A stretch of DNA of 64,000 nucleotides from Hyperoplus lanceolatus (taxonomy: Eukaryota > Chordata > Actinopteri > Uranoscopiformes > Ammodytidae): assembly GCA_026929865.2 (NCBI GenBank), contig CM049408.1, positions 2,947,501-3,011,500 on the forward strand, in the 5' to 3' direction. The position numbers and the translations under genes are program-made. Positions within the stretch are counted from its first letter, which is position 1; the number at the start of each line of letters is the position of its first letter. Shown here one piece after another: positions 2,943 to 63,831 of the stretch. The notes under the pieces are model-generated. The model was not told where the DNA came from. It saw only the letters and a program-made list of their open reading frames with translations, and did no database searches.

Positions 2943-2995
2943 GCCAGGGACAATTCTCTGGAAGTATAGACTCAATTAGCTGCGCCAGAGTCCAT

Positions 2996-4001
2996 GGGCC
3001 TATCCGAATAGTATTTTTAGCATAGGAAATTTCCTTTCCTATCGAGATGACCCGGAAGTACTCGGTGGATAGGTGATCCGAATTCTCAAAATGCTTAGGA
3101 AAGGCATAGGAAAGGAGCCTCGATTCATACTTTAACCCTCCTTTAGCATAGGTTACTCCGGACCAACCTATGCTAAAGGAAAGGAGATAGGATAATTCTT
3201 TACGGCGGCAAGATTTAAAGCAACAGGCCACCGCCGGAGTTTACCGACTCTACACGAATACGAATGAGAGGTAAAACAGAAGAGAGGAGAGGAGAAGAGA
3301 GGAAGATTTAACTCGGCTAAAACAAAATACCCCCCCCCCACACACACACACAGGCTAAAGATAATAAAGAACTAATAATAATAGTTATTTTCGTAGCACA
3401 TAATTTACACCATAAGAAAATAAAATACCAACTTCACATTTAATGAAGTTACTGGGGGCAGTTCATTTCAACATCAACACAAGTGTAGCCTATTTTTATT
3501 CCACATGTGAATTGGGATATATGGGAGTGATTCTCACTCTGTTGGAGACAACCTGATTAAAATCAATATGAAAAGAACGCATGGATCAAACGAGCGCTTG
3601 TTGTAGTCAATTTTCGGAGAATAGGCTAGTGTAGTTTCACGCTAGTGACTCACGTCAGCAATACTTGCCGTCGCGCAATGACGTCGGTTAGGAAAAGTGG
3701 AGTAGAATTCTTTTGAAACAGTGCTGTCCTTTCCTATGTTCGATAGGAAGCACCTTTCATCTCTCCTTAACCCCGATGACGTTTAGGGGTTAAGGTATAG
3801 GAAAGGAGGCTTATAGGTTAGGAGATTGGACTTTTCGGATAGGCCCGTGGAGTCGAATTCTTTTGAAACAGTGCTGTCTTTTCCTATGTTCGATAGGAAG
3901 CACCTTTCATCTCTCCTTAACCCGTCCCCGATGACGTTTAGGGGTTAAGGTATAGGAAAGGAGGCTTATAGGTTAGGAGATTGGACTATTCGGATAGGCC
4001 C
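2996..4001. mobile_element. Inverted-repeat DNA element with 3-bp target duplication
   Basis: The left end is GGGCCTATCCGAATAGT and the right end ACTATTCGGATAGGCCC. CAT flanks both sides (2993-2995 and 4002-4004). No transposase frame. The right end is tandemly duplicated: about 3697-3845 and 3847-4001 both run from GAATTCTTTTGAAACAG to CGGATAGGCCC. A 3-bp duplication would suit a PIF/Harbinger-type non-autonomous element, but the superfamily is uncertain. Confidence 0.8.
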
Positions 4002-25157: not shown

Positions 25158-25201
25158 CATATCCTCGTACAAATGCTGTCGCTTTCATACTGTATACATG
25201 T

Positions 25202-27055
25202 TGAAACGGCAAACCCTTTGTTCGCCCTCTTAGTTTTGAGGCAGAGATAGTCTGACACACGTCCTTTGGATAAGCACGCACGGAGAGATGTTTACGTTGG
25301 TGTAGAATGATTTATTTTAAACAATAACTCCGGTTGACTTTCCTAAAAAATAAAAAACATAACAACTCCAAAAATGCCATCAATTTGCGGCCAAAACAGG
25401 GTTCTTAATATACAAAAAAAAACAATACTTTTCAATGTGAAATAATGTGTTGCAATGTGCAGGGCCGGCCATGACCAATTTGGCGCCCTAGGCAAGATTT
25501 TAGCTGGTGCCCCCCATTGTATTGTAGTCAGGTCCACCACTGTTCATACACTCACACATAACTGGATAACTTTGTCTTTGACATTTAATTTTGTTTTAGA
25601 CAGAAAATAACCCTCACAATAAAAACCATATTACAAAACAAGTGTCATAACATTAAAAAATTAATACAATATTACGATTTGCACAGAAAAATGCAGACGT
25701 TAAAATTTAAAATTATAATCTATTACAAGTATAGTAATAAATCATAACTTTGCATTGAATATAATTCCACACAAAAGCTATATTACAAAATTAAATGACA
25801 GAGACCTCTGGATTTCACTGCTATTTAACTTGATTCCAACAGAGAGCTGTCTACATTTAGATGTTAAGACCTCATCTTCATATCTCAACAAGCTCACCTC
25901 ACCTTGCTACAGCCTGACTACTCTTGCCTTTGGGTCTATTGGTGAAGCCTTTATTCCTCATGCTGCATCACTGGGCTGTGCTAAGGTGGAGAAGATGTCT
26001 GCAGGACAGGTGGCTCAAAGTATTTCAAATGAAAACCTGAAGAGAGAAGAGAAGTATACATGTTATTACATTATTTTTATTAATATATGGTGAAAAGCTT
26101 TAAAATGGAAATTAGATAAGAACTCTTGTCATTAAAATGAAATGCAGTTTAGCATCCAACCAGAGTGAAGAGAAGCAGTAACTAATGGAAAGCTATAGGC
26201 CTAGGTAAGGTACAATCAAACGGAAAAGTTTGCTCCTGCTTTTTATTAAATCAGGATCAAGCCTTCTGATGATACCTCATGGCTTTATGTATAGCACTTT
26301 GATTTACCTTGTGTTGAAAAGTGCCTCACAAATAAACTTGACTTGCCTCAGGAATGCAATATTAACAGTTATTATACTGTGCGCTTTTAACACTGATGTA
26401 AACTAACACAATAAACCCAAGGTTGACAACCATTAATTATAGTGGAAAAGGAATAGCTTTCTAATAACCATTACAAGCAGTGCAAACTTTGGCAAGTTAT
26501 GTCAGGGGATGTAGGCTACCTGAAAAATATTTCTAAATGTCTCTAATGAATGCGCTTAATTTTTTTTCTTATAGTTTGTCTATCCTCAGTAGTTGTCATA
26601 TTTTAAGCTTAACTTAAACATTTTGAAATTATAGTATTAACAGTATTATTAAAAACAAATAAAATAAAATTTTGGAAGCCCATTTATTTTTATTTTTTTT
26701 GTAGCGGCGCCCCCTGCGGATGGATGCGCCCCTAGCATTTGCCTATACTGCCTATGCCCAGGGCCGGGCCTGGCAATGTGTTTAACGCACAAGAGCTCGC
26801 GGTCAAAAAACTGTAGGCTCTCTGCCTTCCAAAACCAGAATGACAGGCATTCTCCTCCCTAAAGTGAGGTAACACCCCTCACTCCCCAGGTGACACCAAT
26901 ACCTAATCACCACCAAGTGCATAACTAAACATATGAATAAACATTTGATTAATATTTTACACACTTACTAATTCATAAATCATAATTTGCCATAAACTAA
27001 AAATGTATTTACTTAAAATATATTAAACACAAAAAATCTTTAAATGGCTCCAACA
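25202..27055 (-). repeat. BEL/Pao 3' LTR, interrupted by a hAT element
   Basis: LTR halves 25202-25459 and 26781-27055 (with the 8-bp duplication) correspond base for base, apart from a few substitutions, to the right LTR. The 3' position follows from the minus-strand gene order. The purine-rich AGGGGCCGG (minus strand) just inside it may be the plus-strand primer. Confidence 0.9.
25460..26772. mobile_element. Non-autonomous hAT element inside the BEL/Pao 3' LTR
   Basis: Ends CAGGGCCGGCCATGACC and CCAGGGCCGGGCCTG; the exact 8-bp duplication GCAATGTG is at 25452-25459 and 26773-26780. No transposase motif. Near its right end about 26225-26345 reads like an L2-type LINE tail (TATAGCACTTTGATTTACC, AAGTGCCTCACAAATAAAC). 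The frame at 25755-26093 has no recognisable domain. Confidence 0.92.
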
Positions 27056-27904
27056 TACCGGCCCCTAATTGTGATGTTACCACAAAACAATTACTTAAAT
27101 TAACTATATGGAGCCAGGTAAGTACAAATATTAATCAATTAAATTCTTCAAAAATATGTCAAGTAGCTTTACACTAACACATCACACCCAGCTTAAATAT
27201 CAAAATTCACTATGACACAATTTACATAATCCCCTCTTGAATTCCCCCCAAAGTTCAAGTTGCATGAATGTCTCTTAGGCAGGGATAACCAGTCCAGTGA
27301 ACGCGGAGTTCATGTATGCAAGGAAGGTGTGTGCAGGGCTATTTGTAGAGGGGCATGTATGTGTGTATGTGTGTATGTGTGTGTATGCACAGTGGCATTC
27401 TTCATGTTATTAAGCTCAGTTTTCAGCTTCCAAAAGCAAGCAGAGCTTATCGATGGGCCTTTGCAGGGTATTCGTCTTTGTTCGGACCAGAACACTTCGG
27501 ACGAGACCTTTGGGCCCGGGCAAAGTCTTTACTACACGGCCAAGGGGCCATGAGTTCCTTGGTGCAGTTTCATCTACGATGACCACCACATCGTTGATGT
27601 TGAAGTTTCTTCTGATGTTAGTCCACTTTTGGCGTTGCTGCATGAGTGGCAGATATTCCTTTATCCACCTCTGCCAGAACAGATCTGCGATGTATTGGAC
27701 TTGTTTCCATCTCTTCCTGCTGTAGATGTCGTCTTTGCAGAAGAGTCCAGGTGGCATGAGAGGTTTAGCTTTCAGTTGCAGTAGGTGGTTCGGAGTTAGG
27801 GGTTCTAAGTCGTTAGGATCAGTTGATACAGTCGTGATGGGTCTGTCGTTGAGTATTAATTCCACTTCACATAGAGCTGTCTGGAGCATCTCATCGTCCA
27901 CTGT

Positions 27905-28140
27905 CCTTCTCTGCAGCACTGTCTCCTTCCCCCTCCTCTTCTGCATCATCCCCGTCCTCTTCCTCCTCTTCTTCTTTTTCTTCTTCTTCTTCTTTGTCCA
28001 ATTCTTTCTCAGCCTTCTTGTCGTTTTCTGTCTTTTCTTCACCTCCATTTCCCAAACTTTTCTTTTCTTTCTCTTCCTCTCGCCGACGTCTGACATCTCC
28101 GCGTCCTCATCTTCCTTCTCTGCCATGGCGTCGTACACCT
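27905..28140 (-). repeat. Charged low-complexity stretch replacing the BEL/Pao polymerase core
   Basis: On the minus strand a purine-rich tract codes for Lys/Arg-rich or, in another frame, Glu/Asp-rich sequence ([13 protein letters not shown]). It lies exactly where reverse transcriptase, RNase H and integrase should be. It may come from a captured transcript; the source is not recognised. Confidence 0.6.
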
Positions 28141-28627
28141 GAACTCTCATCTCCTCTCTATTCTTCTCGTCAATGAGTACTTGCTCTTGGGGTACCTTCT
28201 CTGCGTAGCCTTTCTGCAGCACATTTTCCATGAAGACCTTGTATTCTTCAGCATAGGTAAAGTCTCTCTTGAATTTCCCAGCCAGGTTCAATGTCCGCTG
28301 CAGTGCCACGTTGTAATTATTTGGCATGACTAGCTCTTTTTCTCGAAACGGCAGGGGCAAGATGTAATGTCCACTTTCAAACGCTTTAGAACTTTGGGCC
28401 AACTCCATAAATCTCCTGTCCTCACATGACATCTCTTTCTTCTTCTCAGATTCCTTTTCTGAGAACTCTTGGTTGTACTGCCTGAGTAGCAGGTCCTTCA
28501 GATTTTCCATTGAAATGCGATTGACTGTCATTGATGCTCTGTGGTTATCCATTGCAGATGAAGACTTGAGCGGCCCATTCACCACCCATCCGAGAAGTGT
28601 CTTCACTGCGTATGGTCCATTACTCTG

Positions 28628-30067
28628 GGGCCGGTTTCCCGATAACGTCCTCTCTTAGCGAGCTACGAAGACTCCTACGCTATGACTTACCAAAGTTGTT
28701 TACCTCTGTAGTCGTGGTTCCAGAACGGTGTCTTAGGAGAAACACTCCTTACGTCGTTCGTACACTGCTGAAATCGGTTGCTCCGAGTTCGATTATCCAT
28801 TTCCTGCTCATTTCATGCGCAGCTGCATCTGTATGCTGTCTAATCAAATCTACCCGTGCATTTCTAGTGTAATATAAAGTCATAAATTAGTTTGTTGAAT
28901 CATCATCTGTGTTTTGGAACTCTTGTTTTATAATCAAAGTATCTTTAAGAACACTAATCACGTTACTTGGTGGGTCAGTAATGAAACTGAAAGTAGATAT
29001 AATATCGCCAATAGCCTATATAAATAAACAGACGGCCCAAACAGCGTCCAAATGAGCTAAAATCCTAAATACAATAAACAGTAACATGGCACACTTATTT
29101 TAAGGTAAGCTTTAATTGATTATTCATTAATTTTTTCGCACGTTTACATGTTTTGAGGCGGAGGATCCGACGCACTCTGCCCGGGCGCAGCTGACAGCTC
29201 TCAGCTGTCAGCTGAGCCCGTGTGGAACACAGTGCGGAGGTTCTAGTGTTAACCATGTCGAACATACTACCATAGCCTATACTGATTTAAAAAAAGATAT
29301 AGAAACAGCGGAGGAGATGAAGATTATTTTCATTATGAATGACTTGTGGCAGTTCCATGCGCAACAGGGATGTGACTCGTGTCCGTTTTACGCATGGTGC
29401 TTTACGGAAGGAAATGTGGGGGTTTGTATCTCTGGCGATGCCACAGCGATCGCAGGGACTTTCACTTGTGTAATTAAACTTATACATCTGACTGTATTTC
29501 ATATCACAGGGACACAGCGATGACTGTATTTAATAACAAACTGATAAAAACGATCCGACTGTAGGCTATAGTATCACGTATAAAGTATGTTCATATTGAG
29601 GGACATCGCATCCATTCAGTTAATGCTGATTGTCAAGTCAGTTAGATGACTAAAAAGTAGGCTACTTGTTCATATATTTTGAACACTTTGTGAATCAGAG
29701 TTAATGGTATTCTGCTAAAATATATAATAGCCTAAGCCTACTTTAAATATACGTGATATACACTATACAGTTGGATCGTTTTGAACAGTTTGTTATTAAA
29801 TACAGTCATCGCTATGTCCGTTTGATATAAAATACAGTCAGATGTATTAGTTAAATGACACAAGTGAGAGCTGAAACATCCCTACGGTAGAGCTAAGAAG
29901 GCTCTGCGGGCGCTCCAGACCAACCTTACCAACGTATGACGTACGAAAGAGATTCGTAGCAAAGAACGTTTCGGGAAACAGGCAAAACGTTAAGTAGGAA
30001 CTCTACGTAGGGGTTACGAATGACGTAGCGTTAAGAAGGCTCTAAGAAGGCTTTGGGAAACCGGCCC
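28628..30067. mobile_element. Inverted-repeat DNA element inside BEL/Pao pol
   Basis: Ends GGGCCGGTTTCCCGATAACG and TTTGGGAAACCGGCCC, with CTG on both sides (28625-28627 and 30068-30070). Internally, about 29467-29586 and 29747-29872 are a roughly 120-bp inverted repeat, and 29190-29217 is a short AGCTGACAGCT palindrome. No transposase. A 3-bp duplication suggests PIF/Harbinger or a relative, but CTG is not the usual TWA. Confidence 0.85.
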
Positions 30068-31476
30068 CTGGCTGTTAATTATCTGCCAGGGTTCCATCGC
30101 TTTAGGAACATTCATTCCTATCAACATTTCAATGTCAGCATCAATCTCTTCCATTTGGATTCCACAGAGGTAAGGCCATTTTCTGAGTTCTGATTGGGTG
30201 AGTAGGTTTCCTTTGAAACAGGGATTTTAGCTTGTGTATAAACTTCAGGTAGGTCAATAAATTCATTTCCATCTAGATTGCCAACTTCCAGTCCTGTGAT
30301 CTCATAACTGCTCACATTGTTTTCCTGCCCCATCGTCCGCAGCAGAATGTCAGTTTTGCGTCCGGTCACATTCAGTTGGTTCATTAGCTTTTCAGTGCAA
30401 AATGTGGCCGAGCTTCCCGGATCAAGGAAAGCGTACGTTTGAATGCACTTACTTCCTTTTGCAGCTTTAACTTGAACTGGAACAATAGCGAGAGCACATT
30501 CTTTACCGGCCCCTGTTGCATCATCCGCCGACACTTGTACACTGTTTATTGATGTCTGCTTTGGTGCTGGGGAATTGCGGTTTTGCAGGGGTTCCTTATC
30601 TGAGGTTCTGGTGTCAATATGTAGCAGGGTTGGATGTTTCCGCTGACATGTTTGGCAGTCCAGTTTTGTCTTGCAGTCTTTGCTCATGTGACCCTTCTTT
30701 AAGCAACCAAAGCAATATCCATTTATTTTCAAACATTCCACCTTTTCGTTGTGTGGCTGCGATTTAAACTTGAAGCAGTCCAGTAGTGTATGCTTGCCTT
30801 CACAGAAACAGCAGACAGCTGAAGTAGCAGCATTAAAGTTGGTGTGTTGTTGCCCTTTAAATGCATACTGTCTGGTGTCTTGTTCTCCAGGTGCTGCCAC
30901 AGCTGTCACAAATGTACTTCTGCTTTTGAGTGTCCTTATTTCAGTGCTCCTGTTAGTTGGGGATATTCTTTGAGTAGGAGTAGGGTCTTTAATGTCTCCA
31001 AATGCTGGGTGCAGTAAGATGTTCGCTTGATTTTCAATAAATTCAACAAGATGTCTGAATTTTGCCCGCATCTCTCTTTTCTGAAATTCCTCATATGCTC
31101 TTGACCGCCACCTCTCTCTAAGCTTGTAGGGAAGCTTGGATACAATGAGCTTTAAGGTGGATGTCACATCCAGTTCATCCATGTACTCCAAGTCCTGCAT
31201 GGCGTTGTGGCATTCCCTCAAGTATAGAGAATATGCCTGAAGTGCATTCCCATCCTCCGCTTTAATAGCTGTCCAGTTTAGCGCTTTATTCAGATAAGCA
31301 TTTGCAATCTTCATCTCATCACCAAAATGTTTTGCCAGCAGTTGCATTGCTTCTGAATATCCTCTTCGTGCATCCATGTGCATACAGCTACGAACAAGGT
31401 CTCTGGCCTGACCTGCTGTAAACTTTTCAAGAAAGTAGAGCCTATCCTGGGAACTACTTGTCTTGTCCTCTATTAA

Positions 31477-32078
31477 AGAGGACCTATTATGCTACTTTTC
31501 TGGTCTCAATTTCTTGTTTTACACTGCTATAGAGCAACCTGACACGAATCACATCACAAAAAACTATGTAGATTTTCGGGAAGCTCTTTCTCTTATTTTG
31601 GCGATCCAGCACATCCTGTCAACACTTGAGTGTGTGTGCTTCGGCTCCCTCCGCCTGTGCTTCGGCCATCTCCGCTCCCCTCCCCCCCCCCTGCAAACCC
31701 CACTCCGTTGTGATTGGTTACCTTCCTTCCGGAACACTTTCAGTGGCGGGAAGCGCGAGCATGGACCTATAAGGGCGCGAGGCAGACGGGAACAGGGAAG
31801 TGACAGCATTACCATACATGGAAACATCCGCGTGGAGACGTCACAAAGTTTTATGCGACGTCACAAATTATGAAAGGGTAGACCGCTTTGAAGACGTGAC
31901 TTCTCGACTGGCTAGGATAGTGTTTAGTGCTCTGCACAGACACCCCAGATGGTCAGCAGGGAATATGTCGAAATGCATGTAAGTCATTATTTGATAATTT
32001 AGTATGGTTAAGCATGACTATGAATCATCATAACAACGTTTATAGGTCATAAAAGTCAAAAAGCATCATAGGTCCTCT
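31477..32078. mobile_element. TTAA-type MITE inside BEL/Pao gag (602 bp)
   Basis: Ends AGAGGACCTATTATGC and GCATCATAGGTCCTCT; TTAA at 31473-31476 and 32079-32082. The gag reading frame continues on either side with one TTAA retained, so the insertion point is exact. TTAA duplication is typical of piggyBac-type elements. No transposase; frames inside are not genes. Confidence 0.92.
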
Positions 32079-32998
32079 TTAAGTATTTGAATGCATGCAT
32101 GAAAGGTTGGTATGATAGTGGATCACCTTTAAACACTGGCACTTCTCTTTTAGGCAATAGAGACAGATTTTGTTGCATTATCATGAGCTCAGTGATATCC
32201 CTTTGACTTTTAACCATTGTGCTGATGTTATCATGAGTGATATGACTGGTTGCAGGGTTTTCCAGGTGTGGGGTTGGAGCCCTTGTTGTCACTTGAGAGC
32301 TATTATGAATGCCACCAACCGTTCTCTGTAGTGGAGTTTTAGGCACAGCACCTAATTGAATGAATTCCAAAGCAGATGTGTCTGTAAATGTTTGTTCCAC
32401 ATTTGCCTGTTTGCTTGTTCCCTCAAAATATTCATTCATAGCATCACCATCAGACTCTTTTACATTTGGGTTTAGGAGTACTTTTATTTTTGCATCTGCT
32501 GCTGCAATTTCTCCATCCAGTTCCACTTTTTCCATTTTTGATTTGATTATAGTTTCCTGCAACTGCAATGAATGTTTTTCCTTAATGCAGCAGATTTTGC
32601 CTCCAGAGCTGCTTTCTCAGCTGAAGCCAGCTGAGCAGCAGAAGAAGTGGTTGATGCAGTTGTTTTCCTTGAGATGTTTGATATGCTGTCCAGTGGGTCA
32701 ATCTTTAACTGTGCACTCTGTTCCCTTTTCCATGTTTTAACCTCATATGTTAAGTAGTTGAAGTTCATCACTCTGGGCTCATACCAGTCCAGAGTGTCAG
32801 TTTATTTTTCCTCTTGTGATAAGAGCTCTTGAACAGCAATGTGCACTTTGTTAAACTCATCCACAGCTTGTTTGAACATATACATAGATTTGTCAACATC
32901 ATCAATATTTCCCCCTTCAATCATCAAGGCTTTTGTTTCATGCATTCTCCTTGTGCACACTCCAAGTTTCCCTCTGCGTGTCGCAATCAGAGATTTTA

Positions 32999-35823
32999 GG
33001 CCCTGTTCTCACGGCAACACGAAACGGTGCAAACGCGGAAAAATTCCTGCGGTTGCACTATATCATGTCCATGAAAACAGCAAACGCAGGCATGAAACCG
33101 CAAGTTTTTGAGATCTACTCCCAGGGAGGATTTTTTGGAAAACACAACGGTTTTGGTTTCATGTGAACACCGAAAACATTTCCCCTGGTAACGCTGACGT
33201 CACGGCTCCACTTCACGTATGCATAGTCTATAACATTTGCTGTCAATACCCACACGCGAGTTATAAAGTTAGAAGACAACATAATGTGCAGGGCTTAAAT
33301 AGGCCTATAACACTCGCCAATTTAGTCTGTAGTCTATTAGTAAGTTATTGATACCATGCACCCGCCACTTTGTCTGGGGAAAGATTTGTGCTCTGCCTCT
33401 TTTTCTAGCAAAATAAACTTGTGTACACGGCTCTCTCTACATTAAAAAACACTATCCATAGTTCAGCGCGCAGTGGTTAAGTTACTGTTCAACAAAAGGA
33501 GCATTAAGGCTACGGCTTCACAGTAAAAGCATTTCACTGGCTAAACATTAATAGCATTTCACCGGACAAACGTGAGTTGACTTTTATTTTGAAGTACGCC
33601 TAACAGGAAAAGTAGCCGCTCACAAAGCTCCTTCACTATCAGCATGTCTTCTGTTTTCACGGGTTCAATGCGGTGAAATAAGAGGACAGAAAGCTTGTCA
33701 TTTACAATACTTGTAACCCCAAGCTTACACCAACTGCTTTATGAACGTTAGTGACATTAATTTTCGGTTTCAGTAAGGTTTTGTGCATCAAATTGTACCG
33801 GAAAAGCTATCTACTACTACCTTGTACCGCCAACTGCTGGCCTGGCATGCTTACTAAATCGATTTCGTCCCGTTTCCTCTGAAAACATGTGCACGGGTGA
33901 AGATGTCAGATAAATTGTGTCTGAGGGGCACTTTACACTGTGAAAACGTGACAGTTTTCCAGTTTTTGGTTTAAAAAAAAACCCCGTTCAGACACAATTT
34001 ATCTGACATCTTCACCCGTACACATGTTTTCAGAGGAAACGGCCAATCCTGTAGAAGCAGTGTAGCAGCCATGCCAAGCCAATAGTCAGCTGTGACACAG
34101 CCTAGGAGATAGCTCTTCCAGTACAATTTGATGCATAAAACCTTACTGTAACCAAAATGAATGCCACTAACGTTCATAAAGCGGTTGGTGAAGTTGGGGT
34201 TAAAGTATTGTAAATGACAAGCTTTCTGTCCTCTTATTTCACCGCATTGAACTCGTAAAACAGAAGACTTGCTGATAGTAAAGGGGCTTCGTGAGCGGAT
34301 ACCTTCCTGTTAGTGTACTTCAAAATAAAAGTCAACTCACGTGTTCCATAATCTATTAATGTTTACCAGTGAAATCTTTTACTGTGACGTAGCTTAATGC
34401 TCCTTTTGTTGAACAGTAACTTAAGCTGCCGCGAACTATGGATAGTGTTTTTTAATGTAGAGAGGCGTGTCGCTGCCCTGGCATAGAAGCTACACAGTTT
34501 ATTTGGCTAGAAAAACCGGCGGAGCACATATCTTTCCCCAGACAGTGGGTGGTCTCAATAACTTACTAATCGCTTAGACTAAATTGGCGAGTGTTAGGCT
34601 ATATTTTAGCCCTGCACGTCACTCTCCGCTGATCACAGTGATGGTGCCGTGGAGACACCGTTCATGTTGTCTTCTAACTTTATAACTCGCTTGTGTTGTG
34701 GGTATTTTGACAGCAAATGTTATAGACTACGCATGTGTGAGGGTGGAGGTGAGTCAGGTTATCAGGGGAAATGGTTTGGTGTTTACAGGAAACCAAAGTT
34801 AAGTTTTCCAAAAATCCTCCCTGGGAGGTGATCTCAAAACCTGCGTTTCAGTCTGCGTTTGCTGTTTTCTGTAAATGATATGTGCAACGCGGGAATTTTG
34901 TTTGCCCGTTTTGTGTTGCGTGTTGTGAAAAGTGACGTTTTCAGTTTTTGGTTTAAAAAAAACCCCGTTCAGACACAATTTATCTGACATCTTCACCCAT
35001 ACACATGTTTTCAGAGGAAACGGGGAAACGCTGTAGAAGCAGTGTAGCAGCCATGCCAAGCCAATAGTCAGCTGTGACACAGCCTAGAAGATAGCTCTTC
35101 CAGTACAATTTGATGCATAAAACCTTACTGTAACCGAAAATGATGCCACTAACGTTCATAAAGGGTTGGTGTAAGCTTGGGGTTACAAGTATTGTAAATG
35201 ACAGCTTTCTGTCCTCTTATTTCACCGCAATGAACTCGTAAAAACAGAAGACTGCTGATAGTGAAGGGGCTTCGTGGGGTACCTTCCTGTTGTCTACTTC
35301 AAAATAAAAGCAACCACTGTGTCCAGTGAAATGCTATTTGTTTGGTGAAACTTTTATGTGAACCGTATAATGCTCCTTTTGTTGAACAGTACTAACCCTG
35401 GGCTGAACTATGGATATTTCTTTAATGTAGAGACTCTACCCGTTTATTTGGCTAGAAACGGCAGAGCACCATCTTTCCCCAGACAAATGGGGGGCAATAC
35501 TTACTAACGTTAGACTAAATGATGTTAGGTATATTTTAGCCGCCTCTCCCTGATCACGGGGTGTTTCTCTTTTCCGCTTGTGTTGTGGGTATTTTGAAGC
35601 AAATGTTATAGACTACGCTGTGTGAGGGTGGGGGGCGGTTCGGGGAGGTTTGGTGTTTGGAAACCAAAACGTAGTTTCCAAACCTCCCTGGGGGGATTCA
35701 AAACGGGTTTCGGTTTGTGTTTTTGTAGTGGAACGTTTGTTGGTCGTGTTGGGAGGTGAACGGGGTTTTTTTTTTAAACCAAAAACGGGAAAACTGTCAC
35801 GTTTTCACCGTGAGAACAGGGCC
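32999..35823. mobile_element. Harbinger-like inverted-repeat element with three arms, inside BEL/Pao gag
   Basis: Ends GGCCCTGTTCTCACGG and CCGTGAGAACAGGGCC; TTA on both sides (32996-32998 and 35824-35826), a TWA target as in PIF/Harbinger. The left arm (about 33000-33890) is repeated in inverted orientation twice: about 33965-34930 and 34932-35823. Shared markers are TTATCTGACATCTTCACCC, TCAGAGGAAACGG, CTTTCTGTCCTCTTATTTC and CTCCTTTTGTTGAACAGTA. The third arm lacks many short pieces present in the second. No transposase domain. Confidence 0.85.
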
Positions 35824-36203
35824 TTAAACGATCCTCCGCTTCCGCGGCCGTTTTAAGTTCAGTCATTGTCCCGTCTTATTGTAGTTTGATTTATTGATTT
35901 CCTTTTATTAGATCGCTTCCTTATTTATTTTGCTCCGTTCGCTTTTCCACCGCGTCCGCGGGATGCGCGTTCACACAGAGCTTCTGTTGCCACTTTCCCT
36001 TTTGTCACTTTTTTTTGTTTAGCGATCGCATCATAGTTCATATCAAACAGACAGTTAGTACGGGGCTTTAAACGCTGATCTCATCCATGCACGACTCATC
36101 CATGGGATTGTTTACTCACGGTATCCAAACGAGTTGCGCGCCCGTCTTCCTTGTTCCTTTGTCCTCTCCAAAAGTTTGTCAGACTCGTGGAGTTTTTTGA
36201 CTC

Positions 36204-36736
36204 TGAAACGGCAAACCCTTTGTTCGCCCTCTTAGTTTTGAGGCAGAGATAGTCTGACACACGTCCTTTGGATAAGCACGCACGGAGAGATGTTTACGTT
36301 GGTGTAGAATGATTTATTTTAAACAATAACTCCGGTTGACTTTCCTAAAAAATAATAAACATAACAACTCCAAAAATGCCATCAATTTGCGGACAAAACA
36401 GGGTTCTTAATATACCAAAAAAAACAATACTTTTCAATGTGAAATAATGTGTTGCAATGTGTTTAACGCACAAGAGCTCGCGGTCAAAAAACTGTAGGCT
36501 CTCGGCCTTCCAAAACCAGAATGACAGGCATTCTCCTCCCTTAAATGAGGTAACACCCCTCACTCCCCAGGTGACACCAATACCTAATCACCACCAAGTG
36601 CATAACTAAACATATGAATAAACATTTGATTAATATTTTACACACTTACTAATTCATAAATCATAATTTGCCATAAACTAAAAATGTATTTACTTAAAAT
36701 ATATTAAACACAAACAATCTTTAAATGGCTCCAACA
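36204..36736 (-). repeat. BEL/Pao 5' LTR (533 bp)
   Basis: Uninterrupted copy of the LTR; TG...CA ends. It should carry the promoter for minus-strand transcription. I could not identify a convincing tRNA primer-binding match just inside it. Confidence 0.9.
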
Positions 36737-36902
36737 CATGTGTTTGCAGTGAAGCCGATATTCATTTTCAGATATTATAGTTTTTGTATGTTTTGTTTCC
36801 ATGCCAACAATATAAGGGAAAAGAATGACATTTTGTAAGGTTATGCTATTTGTGTCAGCTGACCAACAGCAGTCACATGTCAATCTACTACTGCAAAACA
36901 CA

Positions 36903-53257: not shown

Positions 53258-54007
53258 TAAGAATATGTTTTGCTACATCCTCTATCAACAATAAAACATA
53301 TTTTCTGTGCTGTTTTGGTTTCTTATAAGAATTATTTAAATGATAGGCAGATTTAACCCACTGTCAGGTGGCTGGTTGCATAAAAAGAAAAAACACTATC
53401 AGCATTGGTTGTAATCTATTTTTTCTTTTTAACCCTAAAACAGGCAACGTGCACTGGGAGATACATACTCTTTAACATCCTGTAGGGGGCTTGCTGGAAG
53501 CTTTTCACTAATCTAGTTAGCATTTATCAAAAGACTTGTCTGTTATTAGCATCTAGGTGACATGATTTGGTTAAAGTTATCTGTCATTGTTTAGTCAGCC
53601 TGATCAGAAATCAACATGGCCGCCAGTGGCGAAGCGCCAGCTTCCTAGGGTGTAAGTAATCATATATTAGACACACTTATTTTCATTAAAATAACCATCT
53701 AAATTCATAGATTGAATTAGGACATTTGTCTTAACATGCTGATGAAGAAGAAAAAAATCCATCTGTGGGATTTTTAGCAGAATTTGAAATGTATGTATCC
53801 CCAGAGATACGTTGCCTGATTAGGGGTAAAAATTTGGTCAATGTTTATTATTCAGAGTTTTATTTAAAACTTGAAGGAATGTTAATAATGACTGCAGAAC
53901 CATATATTATCATGAACAGTTGTGCCCATTACAACATTATTACTGTATTTTACTTTAAAAATTATCTTTCTATATTTATATATACTTAGGGCAGCGCTGC
54001 CTGGAAG

Positions 54008-54033
54008 GCCCTATCCCTAACCCTAACCCTAAC
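54008..54033. repeat. Short telomere-like (CCCTAA)n
   Basis: Four near-consecutive units: CCCTAT then CCCTAA three times, followed by CGGG. Inside the hAT element. Confidence 0.85.
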
Positions 54034-54364
54034 GGGCGGAAGGTGCCTTTCAGGCAGAAAACACCAACAAACTTCACTGCCCAGGGATGGCCAAAGCCAC
54101 TGGCATGGAGAGTAAGCTGCTGTTTATTAAATATATTATTTCAAGCTGGTGGCTGCTGGTCGTTTCAGGCACACAGTGTAGCATCATACTTGCATTGGCT
54201 TTAGAGGAGCATCTGACACACCTGTGGCAGCTGTTTGAAAGGATCAGGGTGCAGTGACTAATAGTCAATCCTGCTTAGTTACAGTTTGGCCTGTCATCCA
54301 TTGATTTCCTTGGACACTGCTTTCCACAAAGGGAGCCTCTAAACTGGTAAAGTAAGACACCGTG

Positions 54365-55530
54365 CCAGGTTCATGCACACCGCACCATATAGTCCCTACA
54401 TTCCTGTTGGGACGGCCTCCACTGCCTTCGTGGACCACACGCCACTGACCTTCGCCATTGCCAAGACTTCTGAGCTGTGGCCTGCACGCCAGCAACATCA
54501 GTTTTCCGCCGTCTCTGAGTTCACCACTGATATTCAGCATGGCTGGTAAGGACAACTTCGGGGTCTGTGCACTTGGGACTCGACAACGCTGTCATGTCTA
54601 AAGACCAGGCCGCTGGCTCAGATGTCCCTACTACACCATGTCCTCCAACTTCAGGCCTGTGGCTGCTGTGCTGTGTTTGATCACGGCAAGGCTCCTCTGC
54701 GATATCTGTACTGACCAGCCCCGCCCGATGGTGCGCGTGGGTTGGGGGCGCCAATGTATATACCTGATCAATGGTTTTATGCAATCTGGGTGTTCAGGCG
54801 TCTACGAGGCTGGTGGGTGTTACATTTGTCTGGCCCCGCCTCAGGAGGGATGTAAACACCTGGGCTAGCTTCAGCGTGGCCTGTCAGCGTGTGCAAGGTA
54901 CACACAATACCAAAGCCCCCTTGGCGTCGATTCTGGTCTCAGAGAGGCATTTCGACCAAGTCAAAAAGGACCTGGTGGGCCCCATGCCTTCCTCCCGTAG
55001 GTTCACTGACCTCCTCACCTTGGTGGACAGCACCACCAGGTAGCCAGAAGCCATTCCTCTGTATTCGCTGAAGTGGACTGGGCATTCTTCTGGTTGTGGG
55101 GGGCCCATTTTGGTATGCCGGCTGACCTCACCTTGTACAGGGGCCCACAGTTCACATCCGAGCTGCATGACTAAGGGGTCGCAACTGGGTTGACTGCCTC
55201 CAGTGGTTAATGTTTGGCCTGCTCTCTGCCCCTAAGGAGGGCCTGCAGTTTTCATCTGCTGAATTGGTTTACGGACAGCCACTGGTGGTCCCAGGAAAGT
55301 TCCTTCAGGACGCTGCGGTTCTGTGGACGGGCGCGTCATATTGGACTTTTGCTCTGGGCAACTCCAGCCCCTTCACTCAGATCCCCCTGAAGCCTCCCCT
55401 ACGATGGGCCCTTCTGTGTCCTGGAGGCAGGGCCCAAGAACTTTGTGGTGGACATGGGGGATAAGCTAGAGCGGGTCACTATGGACCGTCTCAAGCCTGC
55501 CCATCTGGATGTGGCTGATCCAGTTTGATG
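54365..55530 (+). pseudogene. Ty3/gypsy-type integrase relic
   Basis: Integrase core features appear between frameshifts and stops: KKDLVGPMPSSRRFTDLL and LVDSTTR (54960-55040); a decayed GPQFTSEL equivalent near 55140-55165; SSAELVYGQPLVVPGKF (55250-55305); and the C-terminal FVVDMG plus DRLKPAHLDV (55440-55515). The left part (54365-54900) is degraded polyprotein of uncertain identity. No LTRs seen. Multiple stops, so dead. Confidence 0.75.
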
Positions 55531-56069
55531 AAACTAGATTGGTAAAACTGAATAAAATGTACTTAAAAAGTAGTATTTGTAATTTAAATGGACAAGATAA
55601 ACAACAATTTATCATTTCTGTTCATCAAATTAAACATTAATATTTTTACCATTTCGGCTTTTTTTACACCCTAATAGGGCAACGTATCCTGGGAGATACA
55701 ACTCGTAAAACCCAAAATATACAAAGTATAAAAAAAAATTATATGGAAATATTTTTCTTTGGTCTTAAAGAGATGAGTGATAACATGAAAATATTTTTAG
55801 AAACTCATTTTCCACTGTTGCCTGTTTAAGGGTTAATCAATAGAAACATTGAACGTAGGTAACAACATGTCATTTTATAATGGAAAAAAAAACAGGTGCA
55901 CATCACGTGAACAGCATGCACATTGTATTAATTATGAGGTGATTAACCGTTAACTGTTCAACCAATCACGAAACAGAACGTGCACAAGGCCTAATTAGGC
56001 CTATTTAAGTTGGGGATGTAAAATGCAACGGTCATTTTGTGAAGACGCTCAGAGCAGCTGGATAATAAA

Positions 56070-58126
56070 TTAGTGAGAGCCCTGCGGTTGGTGGCCCGCT
56101 GCCAGCGCCTTGACGTTGGGACACTGAGACGTCAATTTCAGTCGAAGAGCACCAGAGCTGACCAGGTTGACACGGTTGCGATATTTTGACTGCATGTGCA
56201 GTGCTTGGCTGAATCCCTGCTCAACGAGATAGGACGTGGGGAAAGCGAGGAGGAGAAGGTGGACTCTCTCCCACAACAGAGGGAAATGCTGTCCGTGTGC
56301 TATCCACAATGCTCACCAACCAGAGGTGCGAAACGTGGCCATCGCTTCAGCGTCATTCTGGAGGTCAATGAGGCTCTCTTGGATGGCCTCCTCGCTGCTG
56401 GCTGCGTCGTGTTGGAGTGGCTCCATCACCCAATCGGGAACGGCCAACTGGTCCAGATCGCTGAAGCGGATCTCCATATCAGCCTTGACAGCCTTTAAGT
56501 GGTACGCGTACACCACCAGATGGTCATCGGTCAGTTCATCCAACACCTGAATGTAAGTCATTACAGTAGGGCCTAAGTTATGTTATTGATGACAATGGCA
56601 GACTAATAATTAAGCAATATCACATGCTACAAGGCAGCCGGCCAAATGCCGAAAATAATCACAGCTGATATTCAGCATGACCGCCGGTGTTATAGGCTAT
56701 TGCTTTTATACAACAGTAGGCCTACTACATTTATTTGTTAACAGTAGGCTAATCAGCGACAGCAAAAGATTATGATTTGTTTGTTTATGAAATAATTTTT
56801 TTGACCCTGCCAACAAAAATAGATCCGAGACTGGGATTTAACTGTTGCTAAGCAACAAACACTGTGGCAGTAATAAGGAACACCTGTAGAGCGGAGTGAC
56901 ACATGTAGGCTAGTTAAACGTTTCGGCCAATCAGATTGTATAAATAATTATTAGCCTACCTTAGCCAACAGTGGGAAGTTGTTGAACTGACGCCTGCTCA
57001 AATTGTGTCCATACAGCTCCAGCTTCGCGAGGAGAGTGCGTATGGCGGCCTTTGAATGGATTAGCGTCACACCATTTCCCTGGAGCTTCAGCGACACTTC
57101 GTTCATCTTCCCAAAGAAGTCGGAAAGATAGAAGACGTCGTGGCGGCAGCCCCATAGCTGGACTTTCAAAGTGTCGTCGGTCTTCTCCAGGAATTCGAGG
57201 ACAGTGAGGAACAGCTCACACAGCCTGGCCAAACAGTTCCCCTTGGAGAGCCAGCGCACCTCTGCGTGGAATAAGAGGCGCTGAAAAGACTCGTCGTTCT
57301 CTCCACAAAGTTGCCTGAAGAGCCGGTCATTAAGCGCATGGGATTTTATTTTGTTTATCGCTTTGACCGCTACATTAAGGGACTGATGGAGCGAGTCGGA
57401 TATGTGCTTTGCCACCAAGTTGTGACGGTGCAGTACACAGTGCACGGTAAGCACATGTGGCACCTGTTTCTTCAGCAGCGGCGCAAAGCCGCGGTACCTG
57501 CCGACCATAGCCGGCGCTCCGTCCGTGGCACAGGCGATGATGTTCTCCATCGGGATGGCCCTCTCTTGCAGGAACTCGGCCAGGGCGGTGAAGATGCTCT
57601 GTCCGCGTGTGTCGGTGGTGAGATACTGCCCAAACAAGAAGTCCTCCTTGAGATCCCCCCCAGACATGTACCGAACATAGCCCATTAAGAGGGCATTGTT
57701 GTCAGCAGTTGTTGTCTCATCTAACTGGATGCTGAAGGGACACGCACGCAGGGTGGCACACAGCTGCTGCTCAGTGTCGAGCGACATCTCCCGTATGCGC
57801 CGGGCAACAGTATCGTTACTGAGCGGGATGGCTTTGATGACTGGCGCAGCATCCCGCTCCATGACTGTCGATATTGCTTCTTTTATTGCCGGAATTACCA
57901 AAGACTCACCCACAGTGAACGGTAAGCCAGACTTAGCAATTAATAAAGCGATGTTGTAGGACGCCACCAACCCGCTTTCGCTTTGATTGACGTTCCGGGC
58001 GAACAGAGAGTTGATGGTGGGCCGTCTTGAATGTTGATCCCTCTGAGACTTAAAGTAGGACGGGATAAATCCATAACTAATGTAATTGGCATTGTACTTC
58101 CGGCACTTTTTCTTGCTATCCGCCAT
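56070..58126 (-). CDS. hAT-family transposase (two exons, one in-frame stop)
   Basis: Exon 1 runs 58126-56960 and exon 2 56546-56070. A 413-bp intron with donor AAG|GTAGGC and acceptor ATTCAG|GTG keeps the frame. The protein starts MADSKKKCRKYNANYISYGF and has the RNase-H-fold blocks of ZBED5/SCAND3-like (Charlie-group) hAT transposases: IQLDETTTADNNALL (first Asp, about residue 135), ACATDGAPAMVGRYRGF (second Asp), HCVLHRHNLVAKH and EVRWLSKGNCLARLCELF. Exon 2 ends with the hAT dimerization block SYLVEQGFSQALHMQSKYRNR. A complete BED finger is not seen. One in-frame TGA at 56315-56313 interrupts exon 2 before the dimerization block; otherwise the frame is open. It would act on hAT ends such as those of this element. 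Confidence 0.85.
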
Positions 58127-59254
58127 GTTTGTTTATGTTATGTTATTAAAGTTGAATATGTTACAATGAATTGTGTACGTTTTCATTGGTTGTTGAACTG
58201 TTATCCCGCGAACTAGCGCTCATGACGTAGCTGTGCTTTGCTGCTGTCATAGGGCTGCTGTACAGGGCTTCAGTGAGCCTCTCGCGGTGCACAGCGTTTA
58301 GTATATCGTCCCTCTCCAACATATGAGGGTTGTGTCTTTAACATGGTTCTGCTTGTGTGTTAGTTAACTCCATGCTTTGGCTGATTACTCTGTGTTTTCT
58401 CCACCTCAGAGACAATAGTTAGTTTAAGTTTGAATCTCGCTGCGCTAGCATTAGCAATATCAGTTAACGTCATTATACTAGTCTGTGATTGGCTGATTCC
58501 TCTGCCGCTAAGGCTTTGATTGGCTGGTTGTTCTGACTCAAAGACCTCTGATTGGCTGTCTGCAGAGCCTTCTCTTTTCTAAGGCTGTGACAGTCAGCAG
58601 ACCGCAGAACGTTGGAGAGAATAGTTAAAAAGAGGTTGAGGGGTTAGATACATGAAAAGTTAAAATAGGCTGTTTATTTCAGGTAACCTATTTTTGCAGT
58701 CAAAAGATTTATACGATTTTTAAGAAAGTTTAAAATATATTTATTAAAAAAAAAAAAAGCTCTCGTGTCCCAGCCTGGTCCCAGCAACCCCCTAGGTTGT
58801 ACGAACGCCCCCGTTGAGAAACCCTGATCTAGCGCATGCGCAGTTTCAAGTACCTAAACCAAAAAAGTCACATGTGACCCTTGTGACACCGGAAGGGCTA
58901 CAGAGGATCTGTTCCTTTCATCTTCTCGCAACGCAGTAGAGTGCCGCGTGCGGACAATCGTTTTTGGAAGGATCGTGCTGACGGTGTGCAGCCTCGCGAC
59001 CAAAGAGGTCGGAGTAACAGGTGAGCTCGTCCTCCAGGGGCTGTTTAGCTGTGTAGCGCTGAAGGAACTATCGCCGCTACTTTGATGGTGGGTCAGCTTA
59101 ATTGGCTTTCCCCCACTGTGTGTAGCCGCTAAGATATAGCTTCCCTTGTGATTTCCTTGATAGAGACAGCTCGGCTGTTTTCTGAATTGCCACATGTTTT
59201 GTCTGGTAAACTTTTTCGTTTTGAAAAAAAAAGAAAGAAAAAAAGAGAATCTAT

Positions 59255-60380
59255 TTTCAGTTGCTTTCCAGTGAAGACAGCGCCCTCGCGTCCTCTCCTG
59301 GTGACCCTGCTGTGTATCTCTTTCCAGTCACTTACTGGTGAAGGCTGCGCTCTCGCGTCCGCTCCTGGTAACACTGCTGTGTATCTCTTTTCAGTCACTT
59401 ATCGGTGAAAGCTGCGCTCTCGCGTCCTCTCCTGGTAACACTGCTGTATATTTGAGCTCAGTCACTTACTGGTGAAGGCTGCGCTCTCGCGTCCGCTCCT
59501 GGTAACACTGCTGTGTATCTCTTTTCAGTCACTTACTGGTGAAGGCTGCGCTCCCGCGTCCTCTCCTGGTAACACTGTTGTGTATTTGAGCTCAGTCACT
59601 TTCCAGTGAAGGCTGCGCTCTCGCGTCCGCTCCTGGTAACACTGTTGTATATTTGAGTTCAGTCACTTAGGCTACTGGTAACACTGTACAGCACTTAGCG
59701 TGCCCGCTCCCTTCCGGCGCTTGTAGCTATTATTATAGCTTCCCTGTTTGCTAATAGAAGCAGCTCGGTTGTTACCACATTTTTGTTTAGTAACTATTTT
59801 TGAAAAAAAAGAGGATCGTTCAGTGTATCTCTTTTTCAGTCACTCTCCAGTGAAGGCAGCGCTCTCGCGTCCTCTCCTGGTAGTACTGCAGAGTGGTTTT
59901 TCGGAACCCACCCCTTGTATTGATTATAATATAATTTTTTTAGTGTACAGTTATGAAATGCTTAACTTAAAGGTTAACACTAGTTGTTAACACGACACTG
60001 CTGTGTATTCTGTTCAGTCACTTATCGGTGAAGGCTGCGCTTTCGCGTCCTCTCCTGGTAACACTGCTGTATATTTGAGCTCAGTCACTTACTGGTGAAG
60101 GCTGCGCTCTCGCGTCCGCTCCTGGTAACACTGCTGTGTGTCTCTTTTCAGTCACTTTCCAGTGAAGGCTGCGCTCCCTGGTTACACTGTTGTGTATTTG
60201 AGCTCATTCACTTTCTAGTGAAGGCTGCGCTCCCGCGTCCGCTCCTGGTAACACTGTTGTATATTTCTTTTCAGTCATTTACTGGTGAAGACTGCGCTCT
60301 CACGTCCTCTCCCGGTAACACTGTCTTGTGTTTTTTGAGTAAGTACCTTACTGGTGAAGGCAGTGCTTTCGCTCCCTCTC
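59255..60380 (+). repeat. 67-bp tandem repeats in the DIRS leader
   Basis: Units such as CAGTCACTTACTGGTGAAGG, CTGCGCTCTCGCGTCC, TCCTGGTAACACTG follow each other at exact 67-bp spacing (the GGTAAC/GGTGAC element starts after 59300, 59367, 59434 and so on). Two unit types alternate, ending in TGTATCTCTTTT or TATATTTGAGCT. About a dozen copies in two blocks (59255-59680 and 59835-60380) with truncated ones; stray partial units recur at 62085 and 62300. Confidence 0.9.
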
Positions 60381-60394
60381 CCAGTATTCTGCTG

Positions 60395-61790
60395 ATGGCT
60401 CATGTGTGTGGTGCCTGTGTGGCCCTCCTAGAGCCTGACGATGGCCATGATCGCTGCCCCTCGTGTCTCGGCTTTGAGCATTTGCGGGAGGGCCTTACTG
60501 AGAGGGCCTGTATGAACTGCGGCTCCATGCCCTTGGCACTCAGGGTGGCTAGACTGGCAGCGGCGGAGCGTCCGACGGCTGTCGACCTTCCCTCAATGAC
60601 ACCACTTCCTTCGGCCCAGCCCGGCCGGTCTTGGCGTCGGGGTAGAGCAGTGCCTCCCCCCCAGGAAAAGGGCTAGGAACAAACTAGCATCCAAGGTGGA
60701 TCGCTTGTCGTCCGACATGGTGAGGATACAGGAGCTCCTCCTGACCCTGCAACCTGGGGCGGTAGCCGTGCGGCTCTGGCTCACCTGGGGCTGGATGCTC
60801 CTCAGGCAGGAGTGGCTCAGCCTTGCGCCTTTTTCAGGTGCAACCCTGCCACAGCCACAGCCTCTTTCTCTGTCCCTCCTTCGGAGGAGTACTTAAAAGA
60901 GCTACACGTGTGCTGGAAGGATGCCAAGGCATCCTAGTCCCAGTGCTCGGGCCTTGGCTGCCAAGCGGGCTCCAGCGCAATATGGGCTGAGTCGCATGCC
61001 ACCCGTTGAGCTTGCCTTTGGCTCCCGATGAAGCTGGATGCCAGATGTCCCTGGCCCTAGTGCAGGGTCGTGGACGACCTGCTTTTAAAGGCCTACGATA
61101 CAGCGGCACGTATGGGTTGGGTAGGCGACTCCCTCACCCACCTAATGCTGGCGCTCTCAACCTCTCTGCAACAAGCTGCAGTTGAGCCATCTCTGCAGAG
61201 GCGTAGCGATGTGTCACTGCAGGCCGTTGCCCTCATGTCCAGGGACTTAGGACACGTTATGTTCACCCTTGTCCAGACTCGCCTCCAGGTTTGGCTGGCT
61301 AAGTCGCCTCTGACGGAGAGGTTCAGGAGGGCTCTCCGCTGGGCCTGTGACGCCGGGGGAGCTGTTTAGATCAGCTGCCCTGGAGACGCCGGAGCGGGCT
61401 GCCCAAGCTTGGGAGACCAGCCAGCAGCTTTCGGGTCTATTCGCAAGAGTGTGTCCACTCCTGGCAGGCCTGGGGACTCCTCGGCTGCCCTCCAGAGCCA
61501 CTCTCAGGCACGTTCTCATCCAGCGAGAGACGATGGCCTACGCAAGTCTCGGCAGCCCACTCAGCGGCCCGCCCAGCAGCCTACTGATAACTTTCGTGCC
61601 CCCGCCCGCCCGTCCTCCGGGCAGCTTCGGGCCTCAGAACCTCACCGGTACCCCCCTCCCCCCACAGAGGCCTGGGGGCCAGGTGCTCGGGCATCAGGGC
61701 CGGCCGCTGGCTGTTTTTCCCAGCAGCAGCGTTGGTTCTGGGTTGACTGTATTATATTACTATGGACCCCTGGGTGGTTTCCACCTTAAC
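60395..61790 (+). pseudogene. DIRS-type gag-like gene, frameshifted
   Basis: Starts MAHVCGACVALLEPDDGHD at 60395 with a Cys/His-rich head (CGAC, HDRCPSC, CMNC) typical of gag-like proteins of teleost DIRS elements. The first frame stops at 60676; the coding signal continues in other frames at 60696-60896 (VDRLSSDMVRIQELLLTL), 61160-61369 (RRSDVSLQAVALMSRDLGH, VWLAKSPLTERFRRAL) and 61347-61790 (LFRSAALETPERAAQAWE, QQLSGLF, then a Pro/Arg/Ser-rich tail). At least three frameshifts. In an active element it would package the RNA. Assigned by recalled similarity to fish DIRS proteins, not by a search. Confidence 0.75.
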
Positions 61791-62400
61791 CCGGGGGTAG
61801 GAATTGCAGCTCTGAAGCCAGCCACAAGCCTTTGGCCGGGTCGGAATGACAGACCCTCAGTGATGCTTCACTGCAGACTTTGCATTATGACTAAGGAGCT
61901 AGGCAGGGTGAGGTCAACTGATTCGTTGGCGCCGCGGGGGTTGGCTGGCGCAGGCCCCCCAGTCGGAGGTGTGTCAACAGACCCTCCGTTCTCTTCCAGT
62001 CGGCCCAGGCCAGACGTTGGGCCAGCTGCACCTCAGGCCCCAGAGCGAAATGGTACCTCTGTGGTACCCCGTGCCAATAGCTTCAGCCACGTCTCGCGTC
62101 CTCTCCCAGTAACACTGTGCAGTGATAAGCTACTTTGTTGTTGAGGCGGCACCTCAGCTCCCCTCCAGCATTCGTAGCTGCTAATTATAGCTTTTTAGTT
62201 TGTGGATAGAAGCAGCTAAGCTATGTTCTAGGTTACCACATTTGTTTGGTAACTCTTTCTTTTAAAAAGAAAAAGAAAAGGGAAGGGTGCTTTTCCAGTC
62301 AGTTACTTACCGGTGAAGACAGTGCTCTCCCGGTAAAACTGCAGTGTTGGTCTGCTGCTCAGGCTCTGCTGCAGCTCGCCTGGGCACCCCACTGACAGGA
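61791..62400 (+). other. Remnant between DIRS gag and recombinase
   Basis: Reverse transcriptase, RNase H and methyltransferase-like domains would be expected here, but only about 0.6 kb remains and I recognise none of their motifs. A TTTTAAAAAGAAAAAG tract and a leader-repeat fragment (62295-62340) suggest rearrangement. Confidence 0.6.
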
Positions 62401-63480
62401 GGGACCTCCTGTCACAGCTGGGGGGTCAGATCTGGCATCCTGACCCACGTTCGCCTTCAGCTCTGGGCTTGGCCACTACAGGGCCCGACTCACTGCTGAG
62501 TGATTGCACTTTCAGGGTTACTGTCCTGAATGCCAGGGCAGCATCAACCAGGAGGCAGTTGGGAACAGGTGGAAACTGTTCTCCAATTGGTGTGCAGCTA
62601 GAGCTGTGGACCCAGTGCACTGCGCTGTGTCCCCTGTTCTGGAGTTCTGCAGCCCCTCCTGGATAGTGGCTGCTCTCACTCCACCTTGGGAGTTGAGGTG
62701 GCTGTTAACTGCTCCCCTACACTAGGGGGTTGATGGTGCCACGGTAGGATGCCACAGGTTAGGGTCCCTCTTTCATTGAGGTGCTTTGAGGCTGCGTCCC
62801 CCTAGGGCCCCGAGGGCTCTGGCATGGAGCCTCCCGCTGGTCCTGGAGGCCTTGTTACCTCCCTCTAAGCCTTCGGTCCAGAGGAGGTCGAGGTGGCTGT
62901 CCATGAGGGATGCAATTTCACTCACCTTAGCCCCTGCAAAGCTGCATGCCCTATCTGGGAACGGTACATGCCGGAGGTGTAACTCTGGCTCATGTATCAC
63001 CCTGTGGCCGAAGGCTGCGTTTCCGCCAAGTCGCTTCCACGCAGTCACCTTAGCCAGCACATCCAGCTGGCACGCTTTCCCCACCCCCCAGCTGAGGAGG
63101 GCAGGTCTGAGCTACTGTGCCCGATGCGGGCTCTTGGGCTTATATTTCTGCTACCACCTGTATTCGTCAGTTGGAGCAGCTCTTTGTTTGCTATTGTGAC
63201 CCCAACAATGGTCAGGCTCTAAACAAAGCAGGGGCTGTCCCACTGGATTGTTCATACCATTGCACATGTCCATGGGACCAGTGGACGCCCCCCGCCATCC
63301 ATTCAACCAGGAGTGTCTCAGCATCATGGGCGGCCCTGAGAGGGCTGCCCCTGAGGACCATCTGTGCCAAGGCATCGCCTTGCACATTTTCCAGGTTTTT
63401 CAACGTCGCCATTCCCCATCCAATGGGGGTGGTCCTATGCCAAGCTCTGCTGTCTCCAACCAGTGAGCTGATTGCTTGGA
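62400..63480 (+). pseudogene. DIRS-type tyrosine recombinase, frameshifted
   Basis: Tyrosine recombinases join the circular DNA copy of DIRS elements into the genome. Fragments in order: GNRWKLFSNWCAARAVDPVH (N-terminal core-binding region, about 62540-62610) and VLEFCSPSWIVAA; then after a gap LHALSGNGTCRRC and ITLWPKAAFPP (62940-63030); CIRQLEQLFVCY (63165-63200); and the catalytic block HSTRSVSASWAALRGLPL (about 63300-63353) followed by TFSRFF. The H-x-x-R of the catalytic centre is visible in HSTR. Frames change at least three times. Dead gene. Confidence 0.75.
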
Positions 63481-63508
63481 TTCTTCGTGACGTTGTTGGT
63501 ATTGGCCA

Positions 63509-63611
63509 TCCAGTGCTTAATGCACCACCTCTGGCGGTCAGTAAGGATGAAATAGAACGCAGAGTTACGTATGTAACTCCGGTTCTATGAATCCTGGATG
63601 ACCGCCAGAGT
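63509..63611. repeat. DIRS internal complementary region
   Basis: Its left half is the reverse complement of the element's left end (GTGCTTAATGCACCACC, GATGAAATAGAAC). Its right half is the reverse complement of the right end (GCAGAGTTACGTATGTAACT, CCGGTTCTATGAATCCTGG). The junction is AAC at 63556-63558. Confidence 0.88.
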
Positions 63612-63831
63612 AACAGGTCACTCAGAAGTCTCGTGGTTCGCGAGAAGATTCTGGGAACAGATCCTCTGTAGACACCGGGCTATATAGCCCTTCCAGTGTC
63701 ACAGGTGACTTTTTTGGTATAGGTACTCGAAACTGCGCATGCGCAAGATGGATATATCCAGTGGTTAATGCACCGCCTCTGGCAGTCATCCAGGATTCAT
63801 AGAACCGGAGTTACATACGTAACTCTGCGTT
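63612..63831. repeat. DIRS right inverted terminal repeat
   Basis: Reverse complement of the left terminus 53060-53124 plus 58835-58930, with GGAACAGATCCTCTGTAG and GAAACTGCGCATGCGC as clearest matches. Confidence 0.85.

Follow-up and report, generated by a model that had tools for sequence, protein, structure and literature searches.

Pieces of captured cellular genes are known from the maize element Bs1 and from further LTR retrotransposons besides it. Bs1 holds spliced cellular mRNA sequence within an LTR element, and template switching has been described as the way in which LTR elements capture genes (PMC5408686). The element described here is alike in both respects, since it holds spliced cellular mRNA sequence between its LTRs and would likewise be explained by template switching. 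It differs from Bs1 in that the element is an animal BEL/Pao retrotransposon, the captured gene encodes the histone chaperone NASP, and the family is young, with 11 near-identical full copies of the 447-bp captured segment. No paper on a NASP-carrying retrotransposon was found in searches of an open-access library; a table in the accessible part of PMC8303831 lists NASP-annotated transcripts that are similar to ERVK integrase. LTR-mediated gene capture is itself already known, and the NASP-carrying animal BEL/Pao family is a new instance of it.

Compared with BEL/Pao elements in general, the copy studied here retains TG..CA LTRs, a short target duplication, the DUF1759 gag region and the DUF5641 integrase tail, whereas both this copy and its NASP-bearing kin are without reverse transcriptase and the integrase core, and carry host gene sequence in their place. 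The copy has also been hit by four DNA transposons, and in this it resembles the nested transposable elements of repeat-rich genomes: here, too, independent hits with family-typical duplications have accumulated in a defunct LTR element. Apart from unusually clean bookkeeping, there is no essential difference. The nest is real and clean but ordinary; it is the NASP-carrying BEL family that is the finding worth keeping.

The window, i.e. the whole stretch of 64,000 nucleotides that was analysed, comes from Hyperoplus lanceolatus (C14:2947501-3011500, in an assembly of 806.7 Mb in 527 contigs). Its G+C content climbs to 0.45-0.59 at the right end (54001-64000), unlike the remainder. A single integration of a BEL/Pao-type element and the insertions within it are laid out as follows.

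25197-25201 and 36737-36741: CATGT, the duplicated target sequence on either side of the BEL element
25202-36736, minus strand: BEL/Pao-type host element, one copy, with TG..CA LTRs and CATGT on both sides
25202-27055, minus strand: 3' LTR of the BEL element, in two pieces (25202-25459 and 26781-27055) with the hAT-like insert between them
25460-26772: hAT-like element, 8-bp target duplication GCAATGTG
27419-28654, minus strand: 412-aa open frame with the start of pol, the NASP segment and the C-terminal part of the integrase (Pfam DUF5641), extending at its upstream end into the CTG element
27905-28176, minus strand: captured spliced NASP segment, replacing about 2.5 kb of pol (reverse transcriptase, RNase H region, integrase core)
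28628-30067: PIF/Harbinger-like CTG element, named for its 3-bp duplication; 29459-29563 and 29766-29870 form an inverted repeat inside it
30068-31476, minus strand: C-terminal part of BEL gag and protease-like region, with Pfam DUF1759 and a match to Asp_protease_2 that falls below the cut-off
31477-32078: TTAA-flanked, piggyBac-like non-coding element, duplication TTAA
32079-32998, minus strand: BEL gag N-terminal region
32999-35823: PIF/Harbinger-like element X (the TTA insert), duplication TTA; the 991-bp family standard corresponds to 32999-33924 plus 35757-35823
33925-35756: element Y, related to X, in two tandem copies; the pair lies within X in the opposite orientation and is flanked by TGA
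35824-36203, minus strand: BEL 5' leader and start of gag
36204-36736, minus strand: 5' LTR of the BEL element, 533 bp

The 533-bp LTRs with TG..CA ends and the short target duplication CATGT are those of a BEL/Pao element, and the coding capacity agrees with this: DUF1759 and DUF5641 are found in the window. The relative L026 is autonomous and holds Peptidase_A17, RVT_1, DUF1759, Integrase_H2C2 and DUF5641; its LTR pair shows 0 substitutions in 521 sites. The window copy matches the pol of L026 at 1-451 and 2963-3804 only, and the sequence that lies between these two matches, at 27905-28176, is absent from L026. None of the five window ORFs scanned gave an RVT match, and the window copy has neither a reverse transcriptase nor an integrase core of its own. 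Next to the 5' LTR, inspection by eye for a primer binding site revealed no clear tRNA match. The preliminary description had taken the host for a young BEL/Pao element; the assignment to BEL/Pao stands, but this is not an ordinary member, being an internally deleted derivative with host NASP sequence. Between the subfamily of the window copy and that of four relatives (L029-L032), the LTRs are only about 77% alike, whereas gag is 96-97% alike, a contrast that hints at LTR exchange by recombination or at faster change of the LTRs.

The NASP identity of the segment rests on DNA comparisons and, at the protein level, on the longer form of the segment in the relative L031 (3862-4282), whose translation matches NASP chains (7v6p, E 8.4e-13). 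With this longer form (447 bp) as the query of a genome-wide search, all 26 of 26 candidates were scored. Eleven BEL loci hold the full 447 bp at 99% identity or more, and six further BEL loci, the window included, hold the segment in part (two of them only 91 and 44 bp). One non-BEL locus, the source gene (L061, C12:23234493-23236391), has the segment as separate blocks, which are the exons. This gene encodes an SHNi-TPR domain (Pfam E 4.4e-9), and the stretch matches NASP chains at E 5.5e-18. The segment in L031 is without the 670-, 355- and 356-bp introns of the C12 gene, and the window segment is without those of 356 and 106 bp, all of them with GT..AG ends; the spliced aligner rewards GT..AG, the exon c piece in the window is only 8 nt long, and its last intron, of 85 bp, is supported by just 16 nt. 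Gaps of 69 and 79 bp in the spliced alignment have ends other than GT..AG, and we interpret them as deletions rather than introns. A Pfam search of the segment returned no NASP match, the best being CDC45 at E 0.1. Compared with PDB chains, the 412-aa window frame likewise gave no match at E 0.1.

Transfer went from gene to element, since the C12 gene contains introns as well as additional NASP exons. Intron-free cellular exon sequence thus lies inside an LTR element, and the captured part replicates with that element: in this small family of BEL elements it is present, complete or in part, at 17 loci in total, and the LTR pairs of L029-L032 differ by 1, 0, 0 and 0 substitutions, respectively. 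A reading of the segment as 'acidic filler' produced by microsatellite slippage was also considered, and is ruled out by the C12 exons together with the NASP protein match. In the copy on C21 (L062), some 500 bp of extra sequence (738-1239) separate two NASP exon stretches and are perhaps another insert.

The junctions give some indication of how the segment was acquired. At the upstream junction in L031, BEL and NASP share a short stretch of microsimilarity, AAG.T.GTGG. The downstream junction, from NASP to pol position 2963, is common to the window copy, L062 and L063, and in elements of the L029-L032 type NASP is joined to a different part of pol. The upstream junction differs between subfamilies, so that a single capture is inferred rather than observed. 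Most probably, reverse transcriptase that was copying BEL RNA jumped to a spliced NASP mRNA packaged with it and then back; in the resulting non-autonomous BEL/Pao element a spliced NASP fragment stands in place of most of pol. Later deletions and recombination could account for the differing NASP-pol junctions, and the NASP-bearing element would have been copied in trans by the enzymes of autonomous relatives. At the window site the element integrated with duplication of CATGT and then gathered seven LTR substitutions. Four unrelated non-autonomous DNA transposons struck after integration, each by cut-and-paste and each with the duplication usual for its family, and one of these inserts also holds a nested pair of related elements. 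As a whole, the account of a NASP-carrying non-autonomous BEL element that integrated and then received four independent DNA transposon hits is very probably correct.

Among the four young copies examined, L029 and L030 each have gag and the NASP segment in a single open frame, of 1,230 and 1,333 aa respectively. This frame is interrupted in the remaining two of the four, and also in L009 and in the window copy. The open frame follows that of NASP for about 40 residues and then continues in another, lysine-rich frame. Over 88 codons, L031 differs from the host gene by 20 nucleotides and 12 amino acids (dN 0.066, dS 0.133). The nucleotide differences are spread 7/6/7 over the three codon positions, compared with 5/4/14 in the longest gag stretch between L026 and L031, and purifying selection on the NASP part is thus unsupported. 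Because the changes are even over codon positions and the frame departs from that of NASP part way, the NASP part is likelier to be mainly a passenger. That the predicted Gag-protease-NASP fusion works for the element, for instance in histone binding or nuclear entry, is unlikely; if it did, a retrotransposon would have recruited a piece of a histone chaperone.

Turning to the nest, four elements with four distinct target duplications (GCAATGTG, CTG, TTAA and TTA) do lie in one LTR element, as the preliminary description had it, and both coordinates and duplications were verified. Removal of the hAT-like insert restores the left LTR to 258 + 275 = 533 bp, the same as the right LTR. The nest does not have the five layers first proposed; the four are sister insertions at depth 1, and there is one second-depth event, the Y pair at 33925-35756 in the TTA element. 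The coding frame had been thought to continue past three of the inserts. This holds for the TTAA insertion (602 + 4 bp), where the list of open reading frames has the same frame open on both sides, but not for the CTG and TTA insertions, which do lie in coding sequence but have different open frames on their flanks; owing to small indels in the window copy, the frame does not simply resume at these two sites.

A first look at the insert families yielded at least 490 hAT, at least 1352 CTG, at least 875 TTAA and at least 2214 TTA candidates, 40 of each being scored, and target duplications were checked in six other copies fetched per family. An exact 8-bp duplication was found in 4 of 6 hAT copies, CTG or CAG in 4 of 6 copies of the CTG element, TTAA in 6 of 6 copies of the TTAA element, and TTA or TAA in 5 of 6 copies of the TTA element; the remaining duplications were imperfect or shifted. 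The insert at 25460-26772 fits hAT elements, which duplicate 8 bp of target and end in short inverted repeats, and it is labelled hAT-like by the convention on duplication length; other copies of its family are mostly about 300 bp longer near the right end. The CTG and TTA inserts show the 3-bp CWG or TWA duplications of PIF/Harbinger elements. The TTAA insert, whose family copies are at least 99% alike, has the TTAA duplication of piggyBac-like elements. Ends of piggyBac start with CCC, and those of the insert, AGAGGACC..GGTCCTCT, are without the CCC start expected for piggyBac.

Two alternatives to recent, independent insertion into a young element had been raised in the preliminary description. 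One is a composite transposon, i.e. a BEL copy mobilised with the inserts already inside, and internal inserts could in principle travel via RNA-based copying. No support for this was found, however: L009 (C6, the closest genomic relative) and L021 (C13) have nothing inserted at the CTG, TTAA and TTA sites, L026 and L029-L032 run uninterrupted through all three, and the hAT-like insert is present in one LTR only. A comparison of the 27 loci L002-L028 with the four insert families gave nothing as long as 60 bp at E 1e-10. L009 carries two other inserts instead, one between TTAA copies and one between CAG copies (the CAG by eye, with an alignment overlap of 5 bp). Taken together, the empty or uninterrupted sites in relatives and the different inserts of L009 mean that the inserts are private, later and independent; the composite is rejected for every copy examined and is exceedingly improbable. 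The other alternative is an old BEL copy whose LTRs have been made alike by gene conversion, which would leave a longer time for the inserts. The LTRs do differ at few sites, with 7 substitutions and 0 indels over 533 sites, which at rates of 2.5e-9 to 1e-8 substitutions per site and year, rates that may not be those of this species, corresponds to about 0.7 to 2.6 million years. The private substitutions of the hAT insert, 20/1069 (1.87%), exceed those on the two LTR branches, 7/1066 (0.66%; Fisher p 0.018), as gene conversion would have it. Yet this insert must be younger than the LTR, since it sits in it, and its excess is probably older divergence inherited from the source lineage. The loads of the other three inserts are indistinguishable from the LTR branches (CTG 11/1407, p 0.81; TTAA 4/601, p 1.0; the X part of the TTA insert 9/915, p 0.46), and the distances from the window LTR to the LTRs of the sister L009 (10/532 and 9/451) are barely above those within the pairs (7/533 in the window, 6/450 in L009). 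Gene conversion is therefore set aside as unneeded, and we regard it as very unlikely; four independent and recent insertions into a young LTR element are the reading that we retain.

Four hits within about 5.3 kb of element make a dense case, and the four families, with at least some 4,900 first-look candidates in 807 Mb, would by themselves give far below one insertion per element. A locus or element that is a preferred target for DNA transposons, as with the hypermutability suggested in the preliminary description, would fit the four hits in the window copy, the two in the like-aged sister L009 and the inserts carried by some other copies, for a 1,001-bp gag query (window copy excluded) identified one copy split once (1,241 bp, 8-bp overlap) and one fragment split twice. 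With the same query, however, 16 copies at 95% identity or more and three partial fragments proved uninterrupted, and L026 and L029-L032, five copies whose LTR pairs show only 0-1 substitutions, are free of inserts. The numbers are small, and age and the neutrality of dead transposable element sequence are enough as an explanation, so that preferential targeting seems unlikely. Single LTR copies in L027 (773-1704) and L028 (5446-6370) are each interrupted by about 0.93 kb. A further choice concerns the 1.8-kb Y part, which could be true, deletion-biased sequence, and a tandem Y pair flanked by TGA does fit a nested insertion. Its two copies differ from the Y of L045 by 10 and 26 substitutions and by 37 and 57 deletions, with no insertions, whereas the X arm of the same insert, over its 926 bp, differs from L054 by 14 substitutions without a single indel. 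X and Y lie side by side at four other loci: the inverted pair L046 is deletion-biased as well, 14 to 1, but the direct pairs L045, L059 and L060 are not, their mutual differences being 1 to 8 deletions and 2 to 5 insertions. Spealman and colleagues (PMC7229812) report that bases are missed when inverted duplicates are read by nanopore. The deletion-only noise at 33925-35756 is probably long-read consensus error in a palindrome; true deletion-biased sequence is unlikely.

The pattern of deletion noise is a practical warning on inverted repeats in long-read assemblies, and the nest provides a clean, ordinary example of insertions dated by the LTR clock. The wider significance lies in the host element. 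An animal BEL/Pao family is documented in which a spliced host gene fragment has replaced the enzymes and which has nevertheless spread recently. With the junctions, the source gene and the autonomous helper all in one genome, it is a testable case of gene capture, and it can also be tested whether a captured piece of a histone chaperone helps a retrotransposon.
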